Positions 12,118 to 62,957 of a stretch of DNA of 64,000 bases are shown here, one piece after another. The notes beneath the pieces are model-generated. The model did no database searches. It was given only the letters and a program-made list of their open reading frames with translations, and was not told the origin of the DNA. Position 1 is the stretch's first letter, and each line of letters opens with the position of its first letter. Position numbers and translations under genes: made by a program. This stretch comes from Nitrospira sp. (GTDB lineage Bacteria; Nitrospirota; Nitrospiria; Nitrospirales; Nitrospiraceae), in the NCBI GenBank assembly GCA_030123565.1, contig CP126122.1:2866800-2930799 (forward strand). Direction: 5' to 3'.

Positions 12118-12141
12118 CACCGTGCAGACGTCTGCACGGTG
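12118..12141. repeat. Perfect 24-bp palindrome, first of three GCAGACGTCTGC sites
   Basis: CACCGTGCAGACGTCTGCACGGTG is its own reverse complement over all 24 bases. It starts 6 bp after the zinc-ribbon stop. The 12-base core recurs at 13520-13533 (14 bp palindrome) and 13822-13833 (12 bp). It could be a hairpin terminator without a U-tract, a protein-binding site, or a mobile small repeat. Confidence 0.8.
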
Positions 12142-46146: not shown

Positions 46147-46175
46147 ATAGTCGTTTGGGAAACAGAAAATCGACA
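46147..46175 (-). promoter_or_regulatory. ECF42-type promoter motif
   Basis: Minus strand: TGTCGA, 16 bases, CGACTAT. It is one of six matching sites in the window and points to the YCII gene starting at 45956. Confidence 0.65.
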
Positions 46176-49425: not shown

Positions 49426-49483
49426 CGTTCGTTCCTCGTATCTCGTCGTTCGTCTCTCGTGAAAGCGTCGCGAGGATTCTTTC

Positions 49484-49651
49484 TTCACGCTTCACGCTTC
49501 ACGCTTCACGCTTCACGCTTCACGCTTCACGCTTCACGCTTCACGCTTCACGCTTCACGCTTCACGCTTCACGCTTCACGCTTCACGCTTCACGCTTCAC
49601 GCTTCACGCTTCACGCTTCACGCTTCACGCTTCACGCTTCACGCTTCACGC
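49484..49651. repeat. Tandem repeat, 24 perfect copies of TTCACGC
   Basis: A 7-base unit, TTCACGC, is repeated 24 times without error over 168 bases. It lies between the MoaD-like gene and the BNR gene, and its right end reaches into the BNR gene: the stop TGA at 49639-49641 is supplied by the repeat (GCGTGAA on the minus strand). Such perfect arrays change length easily by slippage. Confidence 0.97.
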
Positions 49652-50923: not shown

Positions 50924-50952
50924 GTAGTCGTCGGGGCCCGTCCAAATCGACA
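50924..50952 (-). promoter_or_regulatory. ECF42-type promoter motif
   Basis: Minus strand: TGTCGA, 16 bases, CGACTAC. It lies about 95 bp upstream of the BNR gene start and points to it. Confidence 0.65.
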
Positions 50953-56463: not shown

Positions 56464-56892
56464 CTATTGCTTCTTGCCGATCTGCGCCCGCATCCGCTCT
56501 TCCTGCTCCCTCAGCTCGGGCGTGAACTCGGCCCCGAAGTCTTCCGCCTCGAACAGCGGACGGATCTCGATTTCGGACTCTTCGCCCGGCATCGGGTTGG
56601 GACAACGCTTGACCCATTCGATCGCTTCTTCCTTCGACTTGCATTGCCACAGCCAGTAGCCGGCGACAAGTTCCTTGGTTTCTGCGAACGGGCCGTCGGT
56701 CACCATCCGCTTATTACCGGAGAACCTCACCCGGCAGCCTTTTGAACTGGGCTGAAGTCCCTCGCCGGCAAGCATCACGCCGGCATCCACCAGTTCCTGA
56801 TTGTATGCCGTCATAGCTGCCAGCAGTTCCTGGCTCGGCAGCACTCCCGCTTCGGAATTCTTCGTGGCCTTGACGAGGATCATGAATCGCAT
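56464..56892 (-). CDS. YCII-related (DGPF-domain) protein
   Basis: 142 residues. RFMILVKATKNSEAGVLPSQ, then RMVTDGPFAETKELVAGYWLW with the DGPF motif and a C-terminal EIRPLFEAEDFG tail. This longer subgroup extends about 20 residues past the usual end. It precedes the SRPBCC gene by 9 bp, so they are cotranscribed. Confidence 0.9.
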   Translation of the reverse strand: MRFMILVKATKNSEAGVLPSQELLAAMTAYNQELVDAGVMLAGEGLQPSSKGCRVRFSGNKRMVTDGPFAETKELVAGYWLWQCKSKEEAIEWVKRCPNPMPGEESEIEIRPLFEAEDFGAEFTPELREQEERMRAQIGKKQ

Positions 56893-57582: not shown

Positions 57583-57939
57583 TCAGCCCGGCAGTCCTGG
57601 GATCTCGATCACCGGCCGCACTTCAACGGTGCCCTTGCTCGCCATGGGAATCCGTGCAGCGACGGCGATCGCGTCGTCGAGATTCTTCCCCTCTATGAGA
57701 AAGTAGCCGCCCAGTTGTTCTCGCGTCTCCGCGAACGGGCCGTCGGTCACGAGCCGTTTGCCGTCACGTACCCGGACGCTGGTCGCCATGGTGGTTGGAT
57801 GCAAGGGATTAGCCGCGATAAACCGTCCGTGCGAGTGAAGCTCCTGCGCAAGTTGCGTGGACTCCTTGTAACAGTCCTGCCGCTCGGCTTCGCTCAACCC
57901 TGCCTGCTCGTCGAAATAAATCAGCAACATGTATTTCAT
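57583..57939 (-). CDS. YCII-related (DGPF-domain) protein
   Basis: 118 residues. KYMLLIYFDEQAGLSEAERQ, then SVRVRDGKRLVTDGPFAETR and EQLGGYFLIEGKNLDDAIAV, the standard DGPF fold. It resembles the protein at 45585-45956 more than the one at 56464. It lies in tandem with another YCII gene. Confidence 0.92.
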   Translation of the reverse strand: MKYMLLIYFDEQAGLSEAERQDCYKESTQLAQELHSHGRFIAANPLHPTTMATSVRVRDGKRLVTDGPFAETREQLGGYFLIEGKNLDDAIAVAARIPMASKGTVEVRPVIEIPGLPG

Positions 57940-58041: not shown

Positions 58042-58407
58042 TCACGATCGCTGCAGCCCGTTCAACTCCCTGACCGGCCGCACCTCCATACTCCCGAGGC
58101 GCACCGAGGGAAACCGGGACGCCACCTGGATGGCCTCGTTGAGATCCCTGGCATTGATGAGGAAGAACCCGCCGATCTGCTCCTTGGTCTCGGCAAAGGG
58201 GCCGTCGGTCGTAGACAAGGTACCGTTGCGCACCCGCACGGTCGCGGCCATCTGAACCGGCTCAAGAGGCTCCGACAGGATGAGACGGCCATTTTTTCGG
58301 AGCGCTTCGCAGTAGGCCGAGGTTTCGTCCATGAGCGCCTCGACCTCGCTTTTGGAGAGGGCCTCCAGCTTCCTTTCCTCCATGCAACACAGGAGCACAA
58401 ATTTCAT
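58042..58407 (-). CDS. YCII-related (DGPF-domain) protein
   Basis: 121 residues. KFVLLCCMEERKLEALSKSE, then TTDGPFAETKEQIGGFFLIN and EVRPVRELNG. The DGPF motif is intact. It is preceded by three evenly spaced ECF42-type motifs (58452-58662), the nearest about 45 bp from its ATG. Confidence 0.92.
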   Translation of the reverse strand: MKFVLLCCMEERKLEALSKSEVEALMDETSAYCEALRKNGRLILSEPLEPVQMAATVRVRNGTLSTTDGPFAETKEQIGGFFLINARDLNEAIQVASRFPSVRLGSMEVRPVRELNGLQRS

Positions 58408-58451: not shown

Positions 58452-58480
58452 ATAGTCGTTCGGCGAGGCTCAAATCGACA
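58452..58480 (-). promoter_or_regulatory. ECF42-type promoter motif, nearest to the YCII gene
   Basis: Minus strand: TGTCGA, 16 bases, CGACTAT. About 45 bp upstream of the ATG at 58407, a suitable place for the functional promoter. Confidence 0.7.
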
Positions 58481-58542
58481 GGGGCTTTTCCGTGCGACAG
58501 CAACCGACATTCTGTTCAAATCTGCAACAGCGTTTCTATGAG

Positions 58543-58571
58543 ATAGTCGTCGGGTCAGGTCAAAATCGACA
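58543..58571 (-). promoter_or_regulatory. ECF42-type promoter motif, second of three
   Basis: Minus strand: TGTCGA, 16 bases, CGACTAT. Exactly 91 bp from the first; the sequence between the motifs does not match. Confidence 0.6.
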
Positions 58572-58633
58572 GCGCCCTCCACGAAATCATGACCATCGGC
58601 CTCCAATTCAGGGTTGACTGCTGCTGACATCAG

Positions 58634-58662
58634 ATAGTCGTCGAGGAAGTCGGAAATCGACA
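58634..58662 (-). promoter_or_regulatory. ECF42-type promoter motif, third of three
   Basis: Minus strand: TGTCGA, 16 bases, CGACTAT. Exactly 91 bp from the second. I see no other gene between it and the YCII gene. Confidence 0.6.
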
Positions 58663-58863
58663 GGGAACTTCACGAGCAAAACGGGCCGAGAGAATTGATG
58701 CGTGGATTCATCCGGAAGGCGTGGGCAGCCAGACCCCCGTGACGCCAACAGCTCCTCCCTCGCATCTCCTTCGAGTATTTGCTTGCTGCGGCTGCTCATG
58801 GTTAACGTTATCTCTGAGGTCAGGAGCTTGATCTGTATGTATCAATAGGACATACTGATGCAT

Positions 58864-59064
58864 ATGAGGACGACGCTCAACATTGATGATTCCCTCCTAC
58901 GCCGCGCCGCCAAACTCACGGGAGTGAATGAAAAGACCTCACTGGTGCGCCTGGGTTTGGAGGCTCTCATCTCTAGAGCCAGTGCCCGCCGCTTAGCGGA
59001 GCTCGCAGGGACAGAAAAAGGGCTCCGACCTATCCGAAGACGGCGTGTCGGCCACCCGGCATGA
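58864..59064 (+). CDS. vapB: VapB-type antitoxin
   Basis: 66 residues from the ATG at 58864; the ATG at 58858 is possible. MRTTLNIDDSLLRRAAKLTG and KTSLVRLGLEALISRASARR are a ribbon-helix-helix of the VapB (type II TA) kind, with the toxin-binding tail GLRPIRRRR. Its stop overlaps the toxin start (ATGA). Confidence 0.88.
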   Translation: MRTTLNIDDSLLRRAAKLTGVNEKTSLVRLGLEALISRASARRLAELAGTEKGLRPIRRRRVGHPA

Positions 59065-59417
59065 TCTTGGTCGACACATCAGTCTGGATTCATCATTTCC
59101 GCACAGGGAGTGAGCAGCTGCGGTCTTTGCTCGATGAGGAACAGGTAGTCTGCCATCCGTTCATAGCAGGTGAGTTGGCTTGCGGGACATTACGGAACCG
59201 ACACGAGATACTCAGTCTGCTAAGGGCTTTGCCTCAAGTTCGGTTGCTGGAACATGAGGAGGTATTGAATTTCTTGGAAGGGCGACACCTATACGGTCGC
59301 GGTTTGGGGTGGGTCGATGCACACCTCCTCGCTTCGGCGCTTCTCACAGGGTACACGCTTTGGACCTTGGACAAGCCACTGCTAAAAGCAGCGGCGACAT
59401 TGAATATTTCGGAATGA
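59061..59417 (+). CDS. vapC: VapC-type PIN-domain toxin
   Basis: 118 residues. ILVDTSVWIHHF gives the first acidic residue, FIAGELACGTL the second, and GWVDAHLLASALL the third, with LWTLDKPL at the end. It is a complete PIN ribonuclease that would cleave RNA (often tRNA) when not held by VapB. Confidence 0.92.
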   Translation: MILVDTSVWIHHFRTGSEQLRSLLDEEQVVCHPFIAGELACGTLRNRHEILSLLRALPQVRLLEHEEVLNFLEGRHLYGRGLGWVDAHLLASALLTGYTLWTLDKPLLKAAATLNISE

Positions 59418-59613
59418 AGGCAAATACGGAGGCGCCTTGAGACAAGAAAACCGGAACAGCAGTACCTTTCCCCGGGATGTAATGCTTGACACGGTTTCGT
59501 AACCGAGTGATAGTCCGCCCAGAAGGAGTTTCGGCGGGTTTGGGAGCTGCCATGACTGGTCGTTCACCAATCCACCCACACGATATGACGATCGACTATT
59601 GGAGACACCGAGC

Positions 59614-60105
59614 ATGCATATGATATGGACCGTATCTATCATCCTCACCTCTCTGCTACTCTCAGGCTGCGGCGTGACGAAAAGCTCACTCTATCCAGGC
59701 ACAGCACAGACACCCGATCTCAATGAACAGGGCATTCAAATCTTAGGAGAAGTCACTGCCTGTCAAGGCGGACTCTGCCAGAAAGAAGATGGCGGTTATG
59801 AATGGCCGCTGAGCCTCCCTCAGCCACCCCCAGGCTACACCTATCAGCGAGCAATCCAGAAGAAGGCGGCGAAGCAGTTCGGCGTCCCTGAGAATGAACT
59901 CGTCGTCGGCGAGATCAGCGTAGGCTATCGCGCGGAGATTGTCGGCACCATCCGTGGCTGGGAAGCCTCTGCCCTGGTAGGGAGAAAAATTGATGGGACA
60001 GCACCAGTGATTGAGCCCATCAAGCGGCCAGCTCCAGTGGTCAACGCGCCTGCTGAATCTCCCACTCCAGCCAAATATGACCCAACGGCAATTGGCTCGC
60101 AGTAA
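59614..60105 (+). CDS. Predicted lipoprotein, unknown function
   Basis: 163 residues from the ATG at 59614 (GGAG nine bases upstream). Lipoprotein signal MHMIWTVSIILTSLLLSGC. The mature part has a VTACQGGLCQKEDGGYEWPL segment with a cysteine pair that may form a disulfide, a helical AIQKKAAKQFGVPENEL block, and a proline-rich tail. No family recognised. Confidence 0.65.
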   Translation: MHMIWTVSIILTSLLLSGCGVTKSSLYPGTAQTPDLNEQGIQILGEVTACQGGLCQKEDGGYEWPLSLPQPPPGYTYQRAIQKKAAKQFGVPENELVVGEISVGYRAEIVGTIRGWEASALVGRKIDGTAPVIEPIKRPAPVVNAPAESPTPAKYDPTAIGSQ

Positions 60106-60133
60106 GGACGGAAAGACAACAGGGGTCGGGAGT

Positions 60134-60400
60134 CTATTTTTGACCTTCGTCATCTAGAAACCGCCGCACCGGTTCCTGCTGCATCAGACTCAGTGCCCCT
60201 TCGTAAGAGACTCGCGCTTTCGCCGTCCGCCTTAGCCAGCAGCAGAAATCAGCCCAAACCGAATGAGCCCGGTGATAATTCGTGAGATCACCTCGTGCGA
60301 GAATGGCATCGACGAGCCCAGGTCTCACCAACAGTTCGTCGCCCATCGCCACGGCCACGGTCCGAGTCAGCTTGAACACCAAGCGATAAGGTTGCCGCTT
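60134..60400 (-). pseudogene. C-terminal fragment resembling an ECF42 sigma factor
   Basis: The frame LVFKLTRTVAVAMGDELL, then GLVDAILARGDLTNYHRAHS, WLRRTAKARVSYEGALSL and QQEPVRRFLDDE, matches the TPR-like C-terminal extension that ECF42 sigma factors carry (pattern RLNRAVAVAM..GLALVDAL...YHLxxAxRADLLRRLGRxxEARxAYxRALxLxxxxPERRFL). The sigma2 and sigma4 regions are absent, and several conserved residues are changed, so it is a relic. It lies 2 kb from the DGPF gene string, as expected for a former local sigma gene. Confidence 0.65.
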
Positions 60401-60448
60401 CGGCGCATTCAAAAGACAACGACCTGATCCCAAACTGTGACGGAACAA

Positions 60449-61117
60449 TCAACCACCGAAGCTAATATCGCGGCAATTACCACTTGGATTCCGGAATGAC
60501 AAAAACCTCGGTTCAGTCCCTGAACCTTGACAACCATGCCAAAGGATTTGATGGTCGGCGGCGGAAGAAACCCCTTGGCGTCGCAATCTCGTACATTCCA
60601 CATACAACGGAGGAACGGATCATTACAGTGGAAAAGGTGGCGAGAGAAGCTCAGCGCCAGAATGGAACCATCCTCACCGATCTTCGCACACGTGATCGTT
60701 CTTCCTGGCTGGCCTTCTTTCCGATCTTGTGGCTGAACGAATTCGAAGTATCAGCCAATACCTCACGTGAAGCCGGGTTACCCCCATCGGTAGGTCCATT
60801 GCGTGATGACTCTCATGACCGATGAAGATGTGTCGAGAGCATTCTCCGTAGGACCCATTGCACAACGAAGATTGGGCTTCAACAAGCAACCTTCTTCTTC
60901 AGTCCCATGGACGTAGCTCGGCCCTGTTGCCGATTCCCATGGCGCGAGGCTTAGCCCGTTCCGAAGACGTTCTCGCTTCCACTGTTCATCCCAGTCCTCG
61001 GCACAGACCCACCTCACGGGCTCCGGGCAATTCGGTGCGGAGCCCGCAAGATGATCACCGAGCGTCGTTGCTCCCGCGACAGGGACGCCGAGGCTGCGCC
61101 TTCACGGACCGGCGGAT
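60449..61117. other. Intergenic region, possible gene remnants
   Basis: Short frames on both strands lack ribosome sites and known families (for example a plus-strand frame from 60484 and a minus-strand frame with CAEDWDEQWKRERLRNG near 60970). I read it as decayed DNA around the sigma fragment. Confidence 0.4.
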
Positions 61118-61348
61118 TCAGCCGATCTTGGTCACCTCGCTCTCCGACACCTCGGCAGCCTTCGCTCCGCCCGACAACGGTGCTTTCATATTCATTGCAA
61201 CCCGACTGGCGAGATAGACATGCGTCTGGCCGCCCATATTGTCGACACGCACAATGGTGCCTTGCGACGCCGCCTCGCCGAGCGATCGCTGTGCATCGGT
61301 CGCGGACACCTCCCCCTGCAACGTATATCGGTAGTAGTAGGTCTTCAT
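61118..61348 (-). CDS. Small protein, unknown function
   Basis: 76 residues, with GAGGTGTACCG before the ATG. KTYYYRYTLQGEVSATDAQR and GTIVRVDNMGGQTHVYLASR suggest a small alpha/beta fold. The upstream gene ends 9 bp before it, so they form an operon. No family recognised. Confidence 0.6.
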   Translation of the reverse strand: MKTYYYRYTLQGEVSATDAQRSLGEAASQGTIVRVDNMGGQTHVYLASRVAMNMKAPLSGGAKAAEVSESEVTKIG

Positions 61349-61357
61349 CGGTACACC

Positions 61358-61705
61358 TCAAAAAGTAGTGGGACAACTGCGACTACGCCCGTCGATCTCA
61401 ATATATTCTGCCTGCGCCTGGACAATTGTTTCAGCCGTCACATTGTTCAGTTGGTAAAACAGTGCGGTGATGCCGGTTTCGAGAAACGCCGATGGATAGA
61501 CCCAAGAGATCGGATCTGGCGAAGGCCTCAGGTACAACGTCGTTGTGCCTCCGTGCCCAGTGTAACAGAGCAGAATCCGTCTGATCCGGACGATATTGCG
61601 GCCCTGATTCTGGACATACAGCAACGCGGTTGTGCCTGACTTTTGAATCGAAACGACGACCGTCTGGTACTGTTGAAACCCGGTTTCGCAACTGTTGCAT
61701 GCCAT
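61358..61705 (-). CDS. Small protein, unknown function
   Basis: 115 residues, with AAAGGAGGGACTCTCC before the ATG. It is rich in beta strands (TVVVSIQKSGTTALLYVQNQ, IRRILLCYTGHGGTTTLYL, TALFYQLNNVTAETIVQAQ) and starts with two close cysteines (ACNSC). No signal peptide and no family recognised. Followed at 9 bp by the gene at 61118. Confidence 0.6.
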   Translation of the reverse strand: MACNSCETGFQQYQTVVVSIQKSGTTALLYVQNQGRNIVRIRRILLCYTGHGGTTTLYLRPSPDPISWVYPSAFLETGITALFYQLNNVTAETIVQAQAEYIEIDGRSRSCPTTF

Positions 61706-62085
61706 GGAGAGTCCCTCCTTTCGTGCTGATCATGGGATCTTGCGTGCCACCGCAAGACTCGCTTCGAAACGCGATCTCATACCTTTTCAACGGAGCAAGA
61801 AACATTCCGACTCGGATAGTGCCGGATGTGATGGTGTCAAGTGAAGTTACGCAGACGACGTCTCGTTCAGGCCAATGCAGGTATATTGGATGAGATACAG
61901 CGTTGTGAACGAAGAGATACTGACACAGTCCCTTGCCGCCTCGTGCGCCGACCACTCCGTTGACATCGCCCCTCCCACAGTCTAGGTTGGTGCGACAGGT
62001 TGCCCTGGGCATTCGCCTTTCTGCAATCCTGTCATGTCGCTGGAGTCCGTCGTTATCCACCTCTGATCGCCGGCGCACGCTCATC
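61706..62085. other. Intergenic region between divergent genes
   Basis: It should hold the promoters of the minus-strand pair (61705) and the DedA gene (62086). I see no clear motif or gene. Confidence 0.45.
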
Positions 62086-62691: not shown

Positions 62692-62957
62692 CGCCGCCCA
62701 CCGACTTCAGTTCCGCCGTAAATTTGCAGGAATATCGGCGGCTGTCGATGAAGAAATCGCTGAACCACGCTCTGTTGCGAGAAGCTGAGAGCTCTTTCAT
62801 ACGACGATCTGGTTTCCAATCTTCAGTAGAGATCCGCCAGCGCGGAATGTCCCAGCTGTTCTGCAAGGCCGCGTCAGATGCCGCACAGCTGGTCTGTCTC
62901 GATCGCACCTTTGAGCGGCACCGGCGTCAGAGCCCGGTGCGAACCACCATCCCTTCG
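62692..62957. other. Intergenic region, nothing clear
   Basis: Short frames here run on both strands without start signals or known families. The DedA gene and the COQ4-like gene converge on it. Confidence 0.4.

Follow-up and report, generated by a model that had tools for sequence, protein, structure and literature searches.

Results

Genes and gene fragments at the locus

The DNA analysed here is a stretch of 64,000 nucleotides from a Nitrospira sp. genome (G000; assembly GCA_030123565.1, contig CP126122.1, positions 2,866,800 to 2,930,799), hereafter termed the window. It carries genes for YCII/DGPF proteins with associated ECF42-type promoters and, beyond a toxin-antitoxin pair and a lipoprotein-like gene, fragments matching the 3' end of ecf42 (Table 1). 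The intact ecf42 gene lies on the strand of these fragments, 9.2 kb past the window end and 12.8 kb upstream of the fragment termed relic d, and four tail-only fragments are interposed between it and the DGPF/YCII regulon. The first-pass annotation missed three of these, two within the window and one just past its end, which share the strand of relic d.

The motif TGTCGA-N16-CGACTA occurs in six copies in the genome (one with N18), five of them in the window on the minus strand, in agreement with promoters previously noted near the relic; all five point towards YCII/DGPF genes. Three tandem copies (58453-58662) precede one YCII gene at an exact spacing of 91 bp, and promoter pairs at 91-93 bp were also observed in G017, G023 and G025, with one at 73 bp in G016. 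Homologues of the lipoprotein-like gene reside on other contigs of G009 and G019. Elsewhere the window contains a 57-bp perfect direct repeat (49483-49539 and 49595-49651) inside a translated plus-strand open frame, and a perfect 24-bp palindrome (12118-12141). Past the window end, two paralogous GAF/sigma-54-type regulator genes (64314-66365 and 94922-97159 in joined coordinates) are 73% identical over 1 kb of DNA.

Table 1. Features of the ecf42 locus (window coordinates unless marked as genome coordinates)
Feature	Position	Strand	Evidence or remark
ECF42-type promoter	46148-46175	-	motif match
ECF42-type promoter	50925-50952	-	motif match
YCII/DGPF protein, regulon	56464-56892	-	Pfam YCII E 3e-20
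YCII/DGPF protein, regulon	57583-57939	-	Pfam YCII E 8e-22
YCII/DGPF protein, first regulon gene	58042-58407	-	Pfam YCII E 1e-21
Third tandem ECF42-type promoter	58453-58480	-	91 bp on from second
Second tandem ECF42-type promoter	58544-58571	-	91 bp on from first
First ECF42-type promoter after ecf42	58635-58662	-	TGTCGA-N16-CGACTA
VapB-like antitoxin	58858-59064	+	between relic d and regulon; Pfam VapB_antitoxin E 3e-16
PIN toxin	59061-59417	+	between relic d and regulon; Pfam PIN E 6e-11
Lipoprotein-like gene	59599-60105	+	ends 29 bp from open frame of relic d
Tail relic d (fragment of principal interest)	60153-60442	-	decayed 3' end of ECF42, 290 bp or more; nhmmer E 3.5e-47
Tail relic c	60931-61009	-	short and weak; nhmmer E 7e-5; weak protein match E 0.08
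Tail relic b	62744-62860	-	nhmmer E 4.2e-10; protein E 7e-5, one internal stop
Fourth tail fragment, beyond window	genome 2939157-2939290	as ecf42	DNA tail profile
Intact ecf42, beyond window	genome (G000:C1) 2940017-2941321	as relic d	434 aa

Relic d and the intact ecf42 gene

The sequence quoted in the first-pass annotation, which had recognized in it an ECF42 C-terminal tail devoid of sigma2 and sigma4 regions, corresponds to a minus-strand open frame at 60134-60448, and both parts of that description proved correct. Alignment with ECF42 C-termini, which the annotation had proposed, yielded significant matches: the protein matched the tail of the intact ECF42 of the same genome (E 4.1e-22, 63% identity; E 3.7e-20 with a full-length ECF42 query), and a DNA profile built from 28 intact ECF42 tails matched the interval given in Table 1 with 158 bits, so that the homology extends into the beginning of the frame, where the reading phase differs from that of ECF42. 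This tail interval is the sole homology at the relic; sigma2, sigma4 and DUF6596 were not found there. Pfam and NCBIfam searches with the fragment alone gave no match, the TPR models being too short and too generic. Relative to the intact tail, relic d has 14 differences at second codon positions, compared with 3-8 for most pairs of intact tails at similar third-position divergence, an excess as expected of a pseudogene. Relic d is a decayed gene end rather than a short working gene, and is not itself a sigma factor. It is old (63-70%), and the event that produced it therefore cannot be replayed. The segment containing it (58482-61958) is missing from the nearest relative, G021, possibly through loss there or through later arrival in G000.

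ECF42 sigma factors possess sigma2, sigma4 and a TPR-rich C-terminal extension (PMC8999054). The intact neighbour has all of these, with Pfam matches to Sigma70_r2 (E 7e-8), Sigma70_r4_2 (E 4e-11), DUF6596 (E 3e-37) and TPR_2 (E 7e-6, slightly short of Pfam's own cut-off), and it adjoins YCII/DGPF genes and promoters of the group's type; the relic, unlike members of the group, is without every sigma domain. A whole-genome search identified the intact gene as the only ECF42 of the genome, other matches outside the fragments being 26-30% identical and confined to the sigma region. By analogy with the known biology of the group (PMC8999054), the intact ECF42 probably drives the YCII/DGPF regulon.

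Distribution of tail fragments and inserts

In 29 genomes of the genus, partly metagenome assemblies (G000 and several others being single contigs), whole-genome searches revealed clear tail fragments also in G009, G010, G017, G021, G025 and G028, while G002 contains one on a contig without ecf42. All clear fragments that share a contig with ecf42 lie downstream of it and on its strand, and the fragments start between about -85 and -318 relative to the ecf42 stop. Of the 26 Nitrospira genomes that could be scored, 7 have fragments at the locus, as do two additional Nitrospira contigs. The same polarity pertained to 80 ecf42 loci from many phyla, with six fragments in 569 kb downstream and none in 559 kb upstream, all six being from Nitrospira or Nitrospiraceae (L105, L113, L114, L117, L131).

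The regulon follows directly after ecf42 in the nine insert-free genomes measured (G003-G008, G011, G014 and G024), in which the first ECF42-type promoter begins 69-75 bp after the ecf42 stop; the corresponding distance in G000 is 14,555 bp. When the interval was scored by eye from a coverage table, 13 genomes were uninterrupted and 13 bore an insert, and fragments were present in 7/13 with an insert versus 0/13 without (Fisher p 0.005). Six insert-bearing genomes showed no clear tail fragment, and a search for decayed tails beside their junctions retrieved only a noise-level match, in G022.

The cargo of the small inserts comprises HigB/HigA-like genes between the intact ecf42 and the nearest fragment in G000, a BrnT-like and CopG-like pair in G010 (below Pfam's cut-offs), an addiction-module antitoxin in G028 next to a RelE/ParE-like gene, which Pfam does not match and which also occurs in G025, a PIN protein in G009 and a glyoxalase-type gene in L117. 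Several of these genes are assigned to toxin-antitoxin systems by family or by eye only. Inserts are as small as about 0.5-0.9 kb. When other ecf42 loci were searched for donors of the HigBA unit of G000 and the cargo of G010, cargo homologues were found only on contigs without ecf42. Beyond the window (L005, G000:C1 about 2933460-2937140) lies a subtilisin-like peptidase gene followed by small genes with the common stretch FLVTKLSPYYDR; a similar gene set occurs behind ecf42 in G021. From their translations, these genes could be a peptide-modification cluster.

Displaced tails in two genomes

Two genomes, G010 and G028, show displacement directly, in that the host gene carries a foreign tail. 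The G028 fragment lies 2.1 kb downstream of ecf42; together with its 3' flank it can be aligned to G025 at the end of the intact ecf42 and the adjoining flank, in an unbroken tract of about 193 bp that spans the stop codon, while the intact ecf42 of G028 itself carries a tail different from its fragment. The ecf42 gene of G010 has mostly bases of its native clade up to -139, but from -103 onwards 10/11 bases belong to another clade (breakpoint p 3e-7; 0/1000 permutations), whereas its displaced fragment is of the native clade throughout. Fragment and gene have in common a block of 107/110 bp just upstream of the tail switch, and an alignment of the fragment and its flank to the ecf42 end of G001 runs through the stop codon (68% over 232 columns). 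A genus-wide test detected no drop in congruence between the final 120 bp of ecf42 and the remainder of the gene relative to other segments, so G010 and G028 are the only genomes for which tail exchange is demonstrated.

A 67-bp patch of fragment b in G028 (L084) is identical to the live ecf42 of that genome at 66/67 positions, but to the orthologous fragment in G025 at only 59/67. As judged from these sequences, gene conversion after the split of the G028 and G025 lineages may account for the patch.

Discussion

In several Nitrospira genomes new DNA, often comprising toxin-antitoxin genes, entered behind ecf42, and the new tail can be demonstrated twice. The tail array, its restriction to one strand and one side of the gene, the ancestral spacing, the comparisons of G028 with G025 and of G010 with G001, and the foreign tails of G010 and G028 are matters of observation, and mark the ecf42 3' end as a recurrent insertion point. 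We consider it highly probable that the relic is the displaced 3' end of the still-intact, single ecf42, generated as an incoming ecf42 3' piece with cargo recombines into the resident tail. DNA bearing such a piece would pair with the tail of the resident gene, which would remain whole and adopt the incoming tail, the cargo coming to rest after it; the former tail, in some cases together with a duplicated gene stretch, would be shunted downstream and then decay. Repeated events would create a string of tail fragments with the outermost closest to the regulon, and we infer that relic d was itself produced in this way. The route was presumably either integration of a circle by a single crossover, or recombination with homology on one side only and an illegitimate junction on the other. 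The G010 block fits the former if the donor gene was already mixed, and also fits the latter.

A precedent is provided by rhs loci, in which an intact gene is followed by dissociated 3' ends, intervening genes and gene pieces of variable length, and in which new tails acquired by homologous recombination displace old ones, a circular intermediate and single crossover having been proposed (Jackson et al. 2009, PMC2935791). As in rhs, an intact ecf42 is followed on its own strand by displaced 3' ends; in G010 and G028 the tail now attached postdates the displaced one and differs from it; and a displaced piece retains a near-identical gene core in G010 (the 110-bp block), whereas the old fragments of G000 show no such core. 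The ECF42 tail is, however, a conserved regulatory domain rather than a variable toxin tip, and in contrast to the non-homologous modules of rhs all ECF42 tails are homologous and alignable, those displaced appearing dead. In E. coli, single-crossover integration produced partial target duplications of 109-950 bp (PMC3240628). The single homologous junction, the gain of DNA and the 110-bp duplication in G010 resemble such homology-facilitated illegitimate recombination, although those were laboratory events on plasmid DNA and ours are repeated natural insertions at one gene end.

Other explanations account for parts of this evidence. The first-pass annotation had described a relic near its own regulon and proposed that the regulon lost its local sigma factor and is served by another ECF42 factor. 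An ECF42 tail relic does stand beside an ECF42-type regulon, and the window proper holds tail fragments only, but the intact ecf42 found just outside it, on the same strand and the sole ECF42 of the genome, leads us to reject sigma loss as scarcely credible. Ordinary tandem duplication of ecf42 with subsequent decay, the foreign genes arriving later, would place homologous fragments on the same strand adjoining the gene, as seen; yet only 3' parts are found, the fragments of G010 and G028 keep the native tail while the intact genes have foreign ones, and fragment flanks match the flanks of intact ecf42 in relatives, making this origin very improbable.

Genomic islands integrate into the 3' ends of tRNA or protein genes and restore the gene. 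Elements that recognise the 3' end of ecf42 as their att site would similarly leave ecf42 whole and carry the displaced 3' end to the distal edge of the insert, and could insert serially at a single place; several fragments do start between roughly -155 and -103 bp relative to the stop. The starts as a whole vary too widely for a fixed crossover at ecf42, however, some inserts are less than 1 kb, and in the G010 fragment native gene sequence extends for 110 bp upstream of the switch, as would not be expected of an attP arm. Searches for tyrosine integrase (PF00589) near ecf42 in seven genomes gave no match, the nearest on a shared contig being more than 100 kb away. An island driven by a tyrosine integrase was rejected on this ground, and site-specific integration generally seems to us improbable, though less so than duplication.

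Displacement of the ecf42 tail by incoming DNA hence remains our preferred reading. A bolder and rather doubtful extension is that the displaced tails form a working homology array, more than mere debris, through which cargo, often toxin-antitoxin modules, moves between Nitrospira genomes by homologous recombination without a recombinase of its own, while tails still exchange sequence with the live gene, as in the 67-bp patch of G028. A literature search for this locus in Nitrospira found no account of it among the papers searched. C-terminal displacement, described for rhs toxin genes, appears here at a single-copy regulatory gene with a conserved tail, and a lone C-terminal fragment beside a regulon is accordingly no proof of regulator loss. 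Because the old tails are markers of consecutive gains of genes, they allow the acquisitions at this locus to be placed in order.
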